The notes under the pieces: model-generated
What the model was told of the DNA's origin: nothing
Databases searched by the model: none
What the model saw: the letters and a program-made list of their open reading frames with translations, nothing else
NCBI RefSeq assembly: GCF_001429285.1
Contig: NZ_LMJJ01000042.1
Span: 62,001-126,000, forward strand
Length of the DNA stretch: 64,000 nt
Reading direction: 5' to 3'
Source: Ensifer sp. Root278
GTDB lineage: Bacteria > Pseudomonadota > Alphaproteobacteria > Rhizobiales > Rhizobiaceae
Position numbers and translations under genes: made by a program
Shown here: positions 15,191 through 52,845 of the stretch, piece after piece
How positions within the stretch are numbered: position 1 is the first letter of the stretch
Layout of the letters: each line of letters begins with the position of its first letter

Positions 15191-15251
15191 GCGAAGCACC
15201 TCTCCCAAAGTTCGTTGTTGCACGGGAAAAGGGCGTATCGGTGCGATCGCG

Positions 15252-15352
15252 TCTAATCCCTCCGCCGGTATGAGCCGGATCAGGTTCCGCGGGTTGGCGT
15301 TTTGACGCCTCTCAGCCTCCGGCCGCCATGTGGTCGGGAGGCACCCCGTTAG
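15252..15352 (-). promoter_or_regulatory. TPP riboswitch (THI element)
   Basis: Read on the minus strand from 15350: GGGGTGCC, CTGAGAGGCG, ACCCGCGGAACCTGATC, then TACCGGCGGAGGGA, the conserved thi-box blocks in the right order and spacing. It ends about 60 nt before the thiB start codon, whose GGGAGAGG site could be sequestered when TPP is bound. This makes thiBPQ expression fall when TPP is plentiful. Confidence 0.95.
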
Positions 15353-15363
15353 AGCGGCAAGAG

Positions 15364-34074: not shown

Positions 34075-34297
34075 GCGGTGAAGTTAACCGTAAATCCCTG
34101 TCGTGAATGCCGGAAACGGCCGGATGCGTTCGAATCCAGCGGCTTCGGGTCTTGTACGCAACGGGTTTCGGCATCATATTTATCCACAGGCATGCTGGAG
34201 CTCCGCAGCGGCGCCTGGGCGTGGAAGCCAGCCTTCCAAAGCGAGACTGTTCGCCGCCCGACACCGTAACTTCCACCGGAGCTTAAATGAGGAAACA

Positions 34298-45345: not shown

Positions 45346-47121
45346 TCAGGCGGCAACGCCGGCGATCGCTTCGGCGAAATCCTTGGCCTCGAAAGGCTCC
45401 AGATCGTCGATGCCTTCACCGACGCCGATAAAATAGACTGGCAGCTTGTGCTTGGCGGAGATGGCAACGAGGATGCCGCCGCGCGCCGTGCCGTCGAGCT
45501 TGGTCATGATCAGACCGCTGACGCCGGCGATATTGCGGAAGATCTCGACCTGCTGCAACGCGTTCTGTCCCGTCGTGGCATCAAGCGTCTGCAGCACCGT
45601 GTGCGGCGCATCCGGATCGAGCTTGCCGAGCACGCGCACGATCTTCTCAAGTTCGGCCATCAGCTCCGCCTTGTTCTGCAGGCGGCCGGCGGTGTCGATG
45701 ATCAGCACGTCGGACTTCTTCTCGCGCGCCTGCTGGAACGCTTCATAGGCGAGACCGGCGGCATCGGCGCCAAGCTTGGAGGAAACGATGTCGGACTTGG
45801 TGCGCTCCGCCCAGATCTTCAGCTGCTCGATCGCCGCGGCGCGGAAGGTGTCGCCGGCGGCAAGCATGACCTTGAGGCCCGCGCCCGAAAGCTTGGCGGC
45901 GAGCTTGCCGATCGTCGTGGTCTTGCCGGTGCCGTTGACGCCGACCACCAGAATGACATGCGGCTTGTGGCTGAGGTCGAGCTCCAGCGGCTTGGCGACG
46001 GGAGCGAGCACCTTGGTGATCTCGCCGGCCATGATGCGCGAGACGTCCTCGCCCGAGACATCCTTGCCATAGCGCTCGGAGGCGAGCGTATCGGTGATGC
46101 GCATTGCCGTCTCGACGCCGAGGTCGGCCTGGATCAGCAGGTCTTCAAGGTCCTGCAGCGTTGCTTCATCGAGCTTGCGCTTGGTGAAGAGGCTGGCGAT
46201 CTGGCCGGTGAGCTGCGACGAGGTCCGGGCAAGGCCGCGGCGCAGGCGCTGGTACCAGGTGAGCTTTTCCTTCGGCGCGGCGAAGGGCTCGTCCTTGGGC
46301 TTGTTGTCGGTGGTCGCGAAGCCCTTGGGAAGGGCAGGGGCTGCGGCGGCTACCTCTGCTTCGCCGGCCTCGGTCGGCGCGACTTCGGCCACTGCTTCTG
46401 CCGCGTCGCTCTCTGTGGTTTCGAAGCTTTTGGGGAGGGCTGCGGCTTCACCCCTCTCTGCCTTGCCGGGCATCTCCCCCACAGGGGGGGAGATTGCGCT
46501 GGGCTCGCCCACGGCGTCAGCTACGGGCGTTTCGGCTGTCGTGATGTCGCGTAGTTCCGCTTCGGCATCGTCCGCAGTTGGCAAGGCTTCTGCGGTGCCC
46601 TCGATGGTCTCGGCCACGTGGGAGGTTACGATGATCTCAATGGAATCCGCTGGCTTCTCGTCGGCAACAGCTTCCGCGGTCTCGGTGGTTAGAGACGCAT
46701 CGTCGATGGCTGCCTTGGTCTCCGTCTGATCTCCCTCCTTTTGGGGCAGATGTCCCGAAGGGACAGAAGGGGGTATCGCAACGCTGTCCTCAAACGGTGT
46801 GGCTCCGGCCTCGTCACGCGTCAGCTCTTCGGCATCGTCGGAAGCCGGACCGCCCGCAGTCTCGATCTCGGCTTCGAGCACCGGATCGTCCTCGGAGAGC
46901 GGCAGCGTCTCGATATCGACAGGCGGCTCGAAGGCGGCGTCCGGGGTCTCTTCGGCAATTTCAGCCGCGGCGACAGGCGCAGACGGTTCCACCGCCTCGG
47001 CACTTGGCTCCGCCTCGGGCGAAGAGACAATCGTCTCCTCGGGCACACCTTCCGGCGGCTTCGTCTCCTCCACCGCGCCCTTGCCGAAGGTGAAGATCCT
47101 CTTGATGAAACCCATTGCCAT
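45346..47121 (-). CDS. ftsY: Signal recognition particle receptor FtsY
   Basis: 591 residues. The NG GTPase domain is at about 290-591: GVNGTGKTTTIGKLA (G1), DTFRAAAIEQL, DTAGRLQNK (G3), TKLDGTARGG (G4 region) and GVGEGIDDL. The N-terminal 280 residues are an acidic, Ala/Glu-rich disordered region, normal in kind for FtsY but long. Two stretches in it (about residues 115-131 and 206-225) are encoded by a palindromic repeat family in opposite orientations (see repeats at 46445-46502 and 46728-46775). It docks SRP-ribosome complexes at the membrane; its partner Ffh is encoded at 51280. ATG 47121 or 47115. Confidence 0.96.
   Translation of the reverse strand: MAMGFIKRIFTFGKGAVEETKPPEGVPEETIVSSPEAEPSAEAVEPSAPVAAAEIAEETPDAAFEPPVDIETLPLSEDDPVLEAEIETAGGPASDDAEELTRDEAGATPFEDSVAIPPSVPSGHLPQKEGDQTETKAAIDDASLTTETAEAVADEKPADSIEIIVTSHVAETIEGTAEALPTADDAEAELRDITTAETPVADAVGEPSAISPPVGEMPGKAERGEAAALPKSFETTESDAAEAVAEVAPTEAGEAEVAAAAPALPKGFATTDNKPKDEPFAAPKEKLTWYQRLRRGLARTSSQLTGQIASLFTKRKLDEATLQDLEDLLIQADLGVETAMRITDTLASERYGKDVSGEDVSRIMAGEITKVLAPVAKPLELDLSHKPHVILVVGVNGTGKTTTIGKLAAKLSGAGLKVMLAAGDTFRAAAIEQLKIWAERTKSDIVSSKLGADAAGLAYEAFQQAREKKSDVLIIDTAGRLQNKAELMAELEKIVRVLGKLDPDAPHTVLQTLDATTGQNALQQVEIFRNIAGVSGLIMTKLDGTARGGILVAISAKHKLPVYFIGVGEGIDDLEPFEAKDFAEAIAGVAA
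46445..46502 (-). repeat. Palindromic repeat inside ftsY, copy A (in frame)
   Basis: ATCTCCCCC (46472-46480) and GGGGGAGAT (46486-46494) form a 9-bp stem, with GCCTTGCCGGGC-type palindrome beside it. On the coding strand it reads ISPPVGEMPGKAERGEA. The minus strand aligns with the plus strand of copy B at 46728-46775. The coding frame is kept through it. Confidence 0.75.
46728..46775 (+). repeat. Palindromic repeat inside ftsY, copy B (in frame, opposite orientation)
   Basis: TGATCTCCC...GGGGCAGATG followed by the perfect hairpin TGTCCC-GAA-GGGACA (46751-46765) and GAAGGGGG. On the ftsY coding strand it reads IPPSVPSGHLPQKEGDQ. Related to copy A in reverse. Confidence 0.75.
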
Positions 47122-51082: not shown

Positions 51083-51279
51083 CGCCGCAATTCCTTCGCA
51101 AGCTCAAGTCTTCGAAGCCGCCGACCGGGTCCCGTAAAGGTGTAAAGAGAACCCGGAGGTCAACATCCGACAGCGCGTTGCGCCCTCGGGTGGTTTTTGG
51201 CTTTGCGCCTTGTTTTCTGCGCGAAGGAACCCACGTTTCCGGCGAGTTGATCGCCACCGGAAACCAGAAGGAAGTGAGA

Positions 51280-52845
51280 ATGTTCGAGAGCCTCCAGGAC
51301 CGCCTTGGTTCCATATTGAATGGACTGACCGGCCGCGGCGCATTGTCGGAAGCCGATGTTTCCGCTGCGCTTCGCGAGGTTCGCCGTGCGCTGCTCGAAG
51401 CCGACGTCGCGCTCGATGTCGTGCGCTCCTTCACTGAAAAGGTTCGCGAAAAGGCCGTCGGCGCCGAGATCCTGAAATCGATCAAGCCTGGCCAGATGGT
51501 CGTCAAGATCGTCCATGATCAGCTGATCGAGATGCTCGGCTCCGAGGGAGTCACCATCGACCTCAACGCTCCGGCGCCTGTTGTCATCATGATGGTCGGT
51601 CTGCAGGGCTCGGGTAAGACGACCACCACCGGCAAGATCGCCAGCCGGATGAAGACCAGGGACAAGAAAAAGGTCCTGATGGCTTCGCTCGACACGCGCC
51701 GCCCGGCTGCCCAGGAGCAGCTGCGTCAGCTCGGCGTGCAGACCGGCGTCGATACGCTGCCTGTTATTACCGGCCAGTCGCCGACCGATATCGCCGCGCG
51801 CGCGGTCCAGGCCGCCAAGCTCGGCGGTCATGACGTCGTCATCCTCGACACCGCCGGCCGTACCCATATCGACGAGCCGCTGATGATCGAGATGGCGGAG
51901 ATCAAGCGGAAGTCCAATCCGCATGAAATCCTGCTCGTCGCCGATGCGCTGACCGGTCAGGACGCCGTCAATCTTGCCCGCAACTTCGACGAACGCGTCG
52001 GCATCACCGGCCTGGTGCTCACCCGTATGGACGGTGACGGCCGAGGCGGTGCAGCGCTCTCGATGCGTGCCGTCACCGGCAAGCCGATCAAGCTCATCGG
52101 CGTCGGCGAAAAGATGGGCGAACTCGAAGAGTTCCATCCGCGCCGCGTCGCCGACCGCATTCTCGGCATGGGCGACATTGTCTCGCTGGTCGAAAAGGCG
52201 GCCGAGAACATCGACGCCGAGAAAGCGGCCGCCATGGCCGCGAAGATGGCCAAGGGCAAGTTCGACCTGAACGACCTCGCCGACCAGCTTGGCCAGATGC
52301 AGAAGATGGGCGGCATGGGCGGCATCATGGGCCTGATGCCCGGCATGTCCGGCATGAAGGACAAGATGGCCGCCGCCGGTCTCGACGATAAGCTGTTCGG
52401 ACGCCAGATCGCCATCATCTCCTCGATGACCAAGGCGGAGCGCGCCAACCCGGACCTGCTCAAGCATTCGCGCAAGAAGCGCATTGCCGCCGGTTCCGGC
52501 ACCGATGCCGCCGACATCAACAAGCTTCTGAAGATGCACCGCCAGATGGCGGACATGATGAAGATGATGGGTGGCAAGGGCAAAGGCGGCATGATGAAGC
52601 AGATGATGGGCGGCCTTGCCAACAAGATGGGGCTTGGTGGCCTCGGCGGCGGCGGTGTGCCCGACCTGTCGAAGCTCGACCCGAAGCAGCTCGAGGCCCT
52701 GCAGAAGCAGGCGGAAGCAGCCGGCCTCAAGCCGGGCGGCATGCCGGGTCTTGGCGGCGGTGGCCTGCCGGGTCTCGGCGGCGCCAAGCTTCCGGGCCTC
52801 GGTGGCGGTTTCCCCGGCCTTCCCGGCCTGCCGAAGAAGAAGTGA
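51280..52845 (+). CDS. ffh: Signal recognition particle protein Ffh (SRP54)
   Basis: 521 residues. N-domain helices, then GTPase motifs GLQGSGKTTTTGKIA, DTRRPAAQEQL, DTAGRTHID and TRMDGDGRGGAAL, followed by the methionine-rich M domain (QMQKMGGMGGIMGLMPGMSGMKDKM) and a Gly/Leu/Pro-rich tail. Binds signal peptides and 4.5S RNA and docks to FtsY (45346-47121). ATG 51280 (MFESLQDRLGSILNG) is the standard start; upstream frame is not part of the family. Confidence 0.97.
   Translation: MFESLQDRLGSILNGLTGRGALSEADVSAALREVRRALLEADVALDVVRSFTEKVREKAVGAEILKSIKPGQMVVKIVHDQLIEMLGSEGVTIDLNAPAPVVIMMVGLQGSGKTTTTGKIASRMKTRDKKKVLMASLDTRRPAAQEQLRQLGVQTGVDTLPVITGQSPTDIAARAVQAAKLGGHDVVILDTAGRTHIDEPLMIEMAEIKRKSNPHEILLVADALTGQDAVNLARNFDERVGITGLVLTRMDGDGRGGAALSMRAVTGKPIKLIGVGEKMGELEEFHPRRVADRILGMGDIVSLVEKAAENIDAEKAAAMAAKMAKGKFDLNDLADQLGQMQKMGGMGGIMGLMPGMSGMKDKMAAAGLDDKLFGRQIAIISSMTKAERANPDLLKHSRKKRIAAGSGTDAADINKLLKMHRQMADMMKMMGGKGKGGMMKQMMGGLANKMGLGGLGGGGVPDLSKLDPKQLEALQKQAEAAGLKPGGMPGLGGGGLPGLGGAKLPGLGGGFPGLPGLPKKK

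Follow-up and report, generated by a model that had tools for sequence, protein, structure and literature searches.

Rickettsia palindromic elements (RPEs) lie between genes and also in frame inside unrelated, often essential genes. Rhizobia carry palindromic repeats as well, among them the RIME and the A, B and C palindromes of Sinorhizobium meliloti that were reportedly described by Osteras in 1995. A section of one paper describes RPEs in R. conorii, with DNA-repair genes among their hosts, and places some of the GTAG/CGTC REP elements inside ORFs, including the uvrA, uvrB and UvrD/Rep helicase genes (PMC3733652). Excerpts of two others name RIMEs and the A, B and C palindromes as intergenic repeats (PMC2573895, PMC2245857), and those of a further three hold mentions only of rhizobial repeats (PMC2873474, PMC1273637, PMC3687685). 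No report of in-frame palindromes in rhizobial proteins was found in the open-access literature, as far as the excerpts of these sources go, which is weak evidence of novelty.

Here we describe such a case in a window of 64,000 nucleotides from Ensifer sp. Root278 (i.e., the whole stretch of DNA that was analyzed). A stretch of its ftsY gene is very probably an inverted-repeat element of the Rhizobiaceae that a distant ancestor acquired in frame and that the linker of the protein tolerated. Directly observed are the architecture of this element, its in-frame reading, its spread among relatives, the rare codons that it keeps, and other host genes with empty sites.

The likeness to RPEs, drawn by description and not by sequence, is that of a palindromic repeat with some copies in intergenic DNA and others in frame inside unrelated genes for proteins. 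The differences are that the hosts belong to another bacterial order, are free-living and have large genomes, and that the Rhizobiaceae element is an inverted pair of double palindromes with a variable interior. An initial annotation of this DNA had invoked RPEs as precedent, and the parallel holds insofar as a largely intergenic family became a protein segment, as in Rickettsia. The element works like RPEs, although this likeness does not make it a member of the RPE, REP or RIME families. With REP elements it shares short palindromes, which in REPs are often dimers in opposite orientation according to the section consulted (PMC3733652). Unlike them, it has neither GTAG nor CGTC in its consensus end or the complement of that end, and none of the 16 Ensifer genomes searched, some of them rich in the element, has a gene for a RAYT transposase (PF01797, Y1_Tnp, E 0.001). 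With RIMEs and the A, B and C palindromes, compared by description from excerpts and not letter by letter, it has in common that it is rhizobial, intergenic and present in dozens of copies per genome, whereas in-frame use inside proteins goes unmentioned in the excerpts on those repeats (PMC2573895, PMC2245857). Its terminal inverted repeats, i.e., facing ends of about 45 bp, recall MITEs. A comparison with the RIMEs of the chvI-chvG region was attempted through a ChvI-like motif, which was absent from all 25 loci of two genomes, L078 (S. meliloti) and L084 (Ensifer sp. USDA 6670).

The ftsY Gene and Its Insert

In FtsY of Root278, an acidic linker precedes the GTPase domain, which lies at about residues 316–586. 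The gene and the parts of its insert, with the two ends named plus-type and minus-type, are as follows:

45346..47121, minus strand: ftsY, signal recognition particle receptor, 591 aa (ORF; NCBIfam TIGR00064 ftsY, 317.9 bits)
46450..46773, minus strand: whole inverted-repeat palindromic element, 324 bp, 108 codons, FtsY residues 117–224 (layout as in the elements of relatives)
46729..46773, minus strand: plus-type end, N-terminal in FtsY, DNA IPPSVPSGHLPQKEGDQ, peptide PPSVPSGHLPQKEGD
46729–46752, minus strand: inner palindrome of the plus-type end, 3 mismatches against the family core
46752–46764, minus strand: outer hairpin of the plus-type end, GTCCC-TTC-GGGAC
46495..46728, minus strand: element interior, now Ala/Glu-rich linker (compared with L135 and L138)
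46450..46494, minus strand: minus-type end, C-terminal in FtsY, DNA ISPPVGEMPGKAERGE, peptide ISPPVGEMPGKAERG
46472–46480/46486–46494, minus strand: inner palindrome of the minus-type end, 9-bp stem, 1 mismatch against the core
46460–46471, minus strand: outer hairpin of the minus-type end

Counted from the first base of the start codon, the element begins 348 bases further on, in phase and at the boundary between two codons. Each end is a double palindrome of about 45 bp, and the two ends face each other. The initial annotation had reported two repeat copies in opposite orientation and in frame, each with its own hairpin; both are there and read as described, and each end, folded alone, gives two hairpins on the coding strand. 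On that strand the inner stem is complete (9 bp) in the minus-type end and interrupted in the plus-type end. When the four folds of the two ends are compared with shuffles, one stands out (z -2.77), on a non-coding strand.

The linker is GC-rich, repetitive and acidic, and its low complexity could favor a chance similarity. This explanation has next to no probability, however, as the copies stand above chance: a 26-base pattern taken from one copy, with ≤3 mismatches allowed, matches the window once, at its own place, vs. 0.00 times expected in shuffles, and the reversed form of the pattern shared by both copies has 0 matches in every genome searched, i.e., in Root278 and in each genome of the two sets introduced below. 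A direct repeat that had also been pointed out in the linker (ALPKSFETTESD and ALPKGFATTDNK) exists, with 26 of 36 bases alike, but 5 of 5 near relatives have a version of its first copy that resembles ALRESMETAEAD, and the repeat is absent from the repeat listing of the window, so that we give it no weight.

At gathering scores, no Rfam family matches the ftsY element. Three unrelated matches in the window are the ffh sRNA (RF01793) at 51149–51199 (plus strand), just upstream of an Ffh-like match starting near 51283, a TPP riboswitch at 15240–15358 (minus strand), and a ybhL leader at 34187–34286 (plus strand).

The Repeat Family in Rhizobiaceae

The initial annotation had proposed that further copies be sought in intergenic DNA, and the outcome depends on the genome. 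Within the whole 7,095,460-base genome of Root278, the shared pattern (≤3 mismatches) matches only the two ftsY ends, the cores of which are 258 bp apart and in opposite orientation. A search of the same genome with 73 bases of one copy returned that copy itself, the next nine hits having E 0.84 or worse. Relatives hold many more, e.g., 28 copies in G012, 33 in G002 and 101 in L057, the maximum per genome, vs. 2 in Root278. Copies at this threshold are present in 18 of 61 genomes of a first set and in 44 of 50 of a second; the two sets overlap in species, and the genomes searched belong to the same order as Root278 or were reached through its loci.

In these relatives the family lies largely between genes, and TA often flanks its copies (by eye, uncounted). 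Plasmids carry it too: 184 of 72,556 plasmid records match, and 143 of those 184 are named Rhizobium or Sinorhizobium. Among the best 60 plasmid places, 53 are outside listed genes, 1 is in cadA and 6 are in unannotated records (the gene table being incomplete).

A RAYT transposase was considered as the mobilizer of the element and set aside, none having been found in the 16 Ensifer genomes. Over all 61 genomes, a Y1_Tnp match is present in 9, one of them element-rich (G035), and 5 of 14 control genomes were positive. In G035, which has 98 copies, the single Y1_Tnp (RAYT-type) match is at C3:83276-83602 and has a stop inside. No mobilizing enzyme and no parent transposon came up in these comparisons.

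A Probable Single Element in ftsY

The layout of the family was read from 40 loci around listed copies in eight relatives, a self-chosen sample that takes pairs first and is not a census. Of these, 31 hold a +/- pair, 89–254 bp apart with a variable interior (one of them with a third end), and the remainder hold a -/+ pair (3 loci, 91–96 bp), a +/+ pair (1 locus) or a single end (5 loci). The consensus end of the relatives' elements, drawn by eye, is ACCCCCCTCTGtCCTGCCGGaCATCTCCCCCACAAGGGGGGAGATC. L131 and L138 are apparently one site in two species (flanks similar by eye), with the ends kept and the interiors unlike.

The two ftsY copies had initially been taken for two separate insertions, whereas the simplest reading is that they are the facing ends of one 324-bp inverted-repeat element. 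We regard two independent insertions of a single palindrome, in opposite orientations, as very unlikely. Single ends do occur in relatives, as in the 5 loci above, and some FtsY have three to five ends; yet +/- pairs outnumber every other layout in the chosen loci, the order of ends is exactly +- in 35 of 66 element-bearing FtsY, and the extra ends in Sinorhizobium resemble a duplicated +...- unit (by eye). One insertion explains both copies because ftsY has this same +/- layout and because the 15 interior bases adjoining its minus-type end (GGCGAGCCCAGCGCA) are identical in L135, an element copy in a uvrB-like fragment of a relative (they are nearly so in L138). Most simply, then, the ftsY stretch is a single inverted-repeat element.

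Probable Descent of the Element in FtsY

The FtsY set comprised 111 extracts (110 loci and the window), 96 of which were used after leaving out the window duplicate L013, the short extracts L036, L039 and L116, and identical proteins. As their extracts are too short, L036 and L039 are unreliable as absences in the comparison of presence with copy number. Of the 61 genomes in the first set, no more than 30 yielded FtsY loci. As the extracts are stop-free ORFs, in-frame reading is partly built in, and none of the counts is free of relatedness between genomes.

With these bounds, an element end (≤6 mismatches) is found in 66 of 96 distinct FtsY; 62 have both end types, and 30 have none. The ends are ordered +- in 35 of the 66, +-+- in 8, +-- in 8, -+- in 6, and otherwise in 9. 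All minus-type copies (93 of 93) are read in one frame, and plus-type copies in one frame (66 of 74) or a second (8 of 74). The second frame, found in 8 FtsY (L098, L102, L104, L110, L111, L113, L114, and L121), makes independent insertion possible in some lineages. On a tree of the GTPase domain, element presence changes at least 8 times (5 of these forced by well-supported branches) vs. a shuffled-label mean of 25.8; because the tree gives neither root nor direction, this pattern may reflect either a single gain with several losses or several separate gains.

The outer hairpin GTCCCTTCGGGA is present at the FtsY plus-type end in five clades (4, 12, 6, 1, and 4 copies; once in the R. etli clade). 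Among 98 distinct copies that were sampled outside ftsY, most of them in Ensifer and Sinorhizobium, none has it, a count that excludes five ftsY-locus copies present in an earlier count of 0 of 103; it also occurs at two Rhizobium chromid loci that are apparently intergenic (by eye). The constant frame, together with this hairpin common to the FtsY of five clades, favors descent.

The alternative is that the FtsY linker is a hot spot into which separate elements inserted in each lineage, the likeness between copies reflecting recent arrival, and this we think unlikely. It draws on the loop letter of the FtsY ends (a T or A dialect), which matches the family of the same genome (r = 0.91, 40 of 50 genomes), a correlation reached by 0 of 20,000 shuffles. 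On the tree, however, this match comes to 4 independent pairs (means of 3.8 the same way and 0.0 the other; p = 0.125), and shared ancestry within the family could contribute to it. Similarly, the presence changes on the tree and the other frame in 8 FtsY would suit repeated insertion, but the minus-type copies keep to a single frame although three are open, and the outer hairpin is common to several clades. We retain a single ancestral insertion, with later losses, as the probable history.

The exact empty site in FtsY cannot be placed, since element-free linkers do not align there by eye. Absence from ftsY occurs both in genomes with many copies elsewhere (26 in L031 and 31 in L033) and in those with few (3–9 in L029, L034, L038, L041, and L046). 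At the position of the element, element-free Ensifer FtsY (L020, L021, L022, L024, L026, and L028) have an alternative recurring linker, which reads ...LSPAAQEALEAYxxLQETxPEEPPVEPEDLAEQEE... and variants. FtsY ends tended to be more decayed where the rest of the genome holds few copies (rho = -0.55, 45 of 76 rows), a relation that was dropped because it is not significant on the tree, where 3.2 pairs point one way vs. 1.7 the other (2.4 vs. 0.2 at other thresholds).

Conservation of Synonymous Letters

The ends in FtsY are conserved beyond their peptides. At the fourfold third bases of the eight-codon cores, six clades agree with one another at 84–97% vs. 57–67% in the GTPase domain (59 of 66 bearers; L032, L090, L091, L098, L104, L110, and L121 left out). 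Within clades, too, the ends are better kept than the GTPase domain, the R. etli minus-type end excepted (0.75 vs. 0.79). Here, as in the comparisons of presence, loop letter and decay above, copies were chosen by their DNA likeness, a choice biased toward conserved ones. A peptide-based scan, which may have picked up a few windows by chance (one in L122), found the canonical base at 217 of 226 fourfold sites in plus-type ends and at 343 of 366 in minus-type ends. One Gly is encoded by GGA in 54 of 61 cases vs. 3% GGA in the GTPase domain, and in the outer hairpin the rare codons CCT and GGA are kept in 35 and 38 of 40 copies, respectively, whereas CCT stands at 4% in the GTPase domain. That rare codons are kept implies that something holds the DNA letters. 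The initial annotation had named the contrary pattern, in which the segments of relatives would show ordinary divergence and no DNA-level palindrome; what relatives have is the palindrome with its rare codons.

Either copying from the family or selection at the level of the nucleic acid may keep the DNA letters. The loop-letter match between FtsY and its own genome suggests copying, though it comes from the 4 independent pairs given above. As for selection, the palindromes would be kept because, as DNA or mRNA, they bind something or fold to a purpose—a possible account, but to our mind a rather unlikely one. It fits the synonymous letters, which are far better kept than in the GTPase domain, as well as the outer hairpin with its rare codons. 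It also fits the ability of the two ends to pair across about 300 bases of mRNA (z = -2.89) and the four Rhizobium genomes in which the inner stem has other letters and is still palindromic in one end (by eye). The stem changes, however, are mostly single: in 151 copies of 9 pairs each, counted without the variant core of those four genomes, there are 86 unpaired and 26 G-U cells vs. 1 double Watson-Crick change. In addition, the plus-type core of Root278 has 3 mismatches in a genome where no other copy is recognizable, and 30 of 96 FtsY do without the element. Pair covariation in the hairpins, sought among the 151 copies, found no support.

In L098, L104, L110, and L121, both ftsY ends have the variant core CCCCCCCACAGGTGGGGGG. 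Within 2 mismatches, this core is found in four of six Rhizobium genomes, at two places each, both of them in the ftsY loci; the genome of L098 has 48 ordinary family copies beside its variant-core ftsY ends. Its confinement to ftsY suggests that one end was copied from the other or that another variant was inserted, and the two ends may copy each other in these four loci.

It is doubtful that the ftsY ends are a working nucleic-acid site in coding sequence that is kept in step with the genome's own family. If they were, an essential protein-targeting gene would carry a DNA or RNA signal that is also a segment of its protein and is common to dozens of sites elsewhere in the genome. The pairing of a freely changing linker with frozen synonymous letters offers a direct test of repeat copying vs. 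nucleic-acid selection.

Other Host Proteins and Proposed Origin

The acidic linker of FtsY had been singled out as the landing site for such insertions. The element is in frame there, but FtsY is one of several hosts, along with UvrD, CobN (twice), UvrB, and a CadA-like ATPase, so that DNA-repair and vitamin B12 genes are among those that contain it. UvrB and CobN have in-frame element ends in both G012 and G002, and UvrD has them in G012 (the G012 proteins being confirmed as members of these families); one plus-type end is in frame in the CadA-like ATPase of a Neorhizobium plasmid. By our own count G012 has 15 element sites, five of them in frame in conserved genes (ftsY, uvrB, uvrD, and cobN twice); a sixth site is in a uvrB-like fragment, and for the other nine no conserved gene came to light around the element.

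Two of these hosts allow filled and empty sites to be compared. In UvrD the insert interrupts the helicase core, with AQYMWLRLLAQRP on one side and NICCVGDDDQSIYGW on the other, and the protein has 903 aa with the element in G012 and 859 or 853 aa in the 8 of 10 genomes where the site is empty. Both CobN sites are filled in G012 and G002, only the first in G007, and none in the remaining 7 of 10 genomes. Such empty vs. filled sites between close species are a natural experiment on selfish DNA becoming protein, of which the FtsY copy is apparently an old stage. Together, these hosts suggest that protein-coding palindromic elements are not peculiar to Rickettsia, with rhizobial FtsY, UvrD, CobN, and UvrB likewise containing them.

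The peptides themselves bear on tolerance. None of the six frames of the consensus end contains a stop, and the two without Cys and Trp are those read in CobN and UvrD; in FtsY (most plus-type ends) and UvrB, where other frames are read, different letters in the hairpin keep the reading free of Cys. Cys is absent from 62 of 65 element-bearing FtsY linkers. As the peptides from the frames in use have almost no Cys or Trp, the element lengthens the linker without evident harm, and the freedom of this linker to vary would be why the insertion into ftsY was tolerated.

We propose that a mobile inverted-repeat element, presumably moved by an enzyme acting in trans, lands widely, and that genic copies would survive if their length is a multiple of three and their frame harmless. 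In FtsY, the linker would tolerate the added peptide, and the insert would then lengthen and diverge.

In Root278, the family would otherwise have died out or decayed beyond recognition, leaving the ftsY copy and a probable uvrD relic. The uvrD gene of Root278 (L194; contig C40:385791-388481) has an insert at the known element site that lacks a recognizable palindrome and makes the protein 38 residues longer; being unlike the element, this insert is probably a relic. Short remains that resemble deletion footprints are seen at the second, element-free CobN site of L205 and L206. In G012, a second short uvrB-like C-terminal fragment (L167:3915-4262) lies downstream of uvrB and has a single end of its own.
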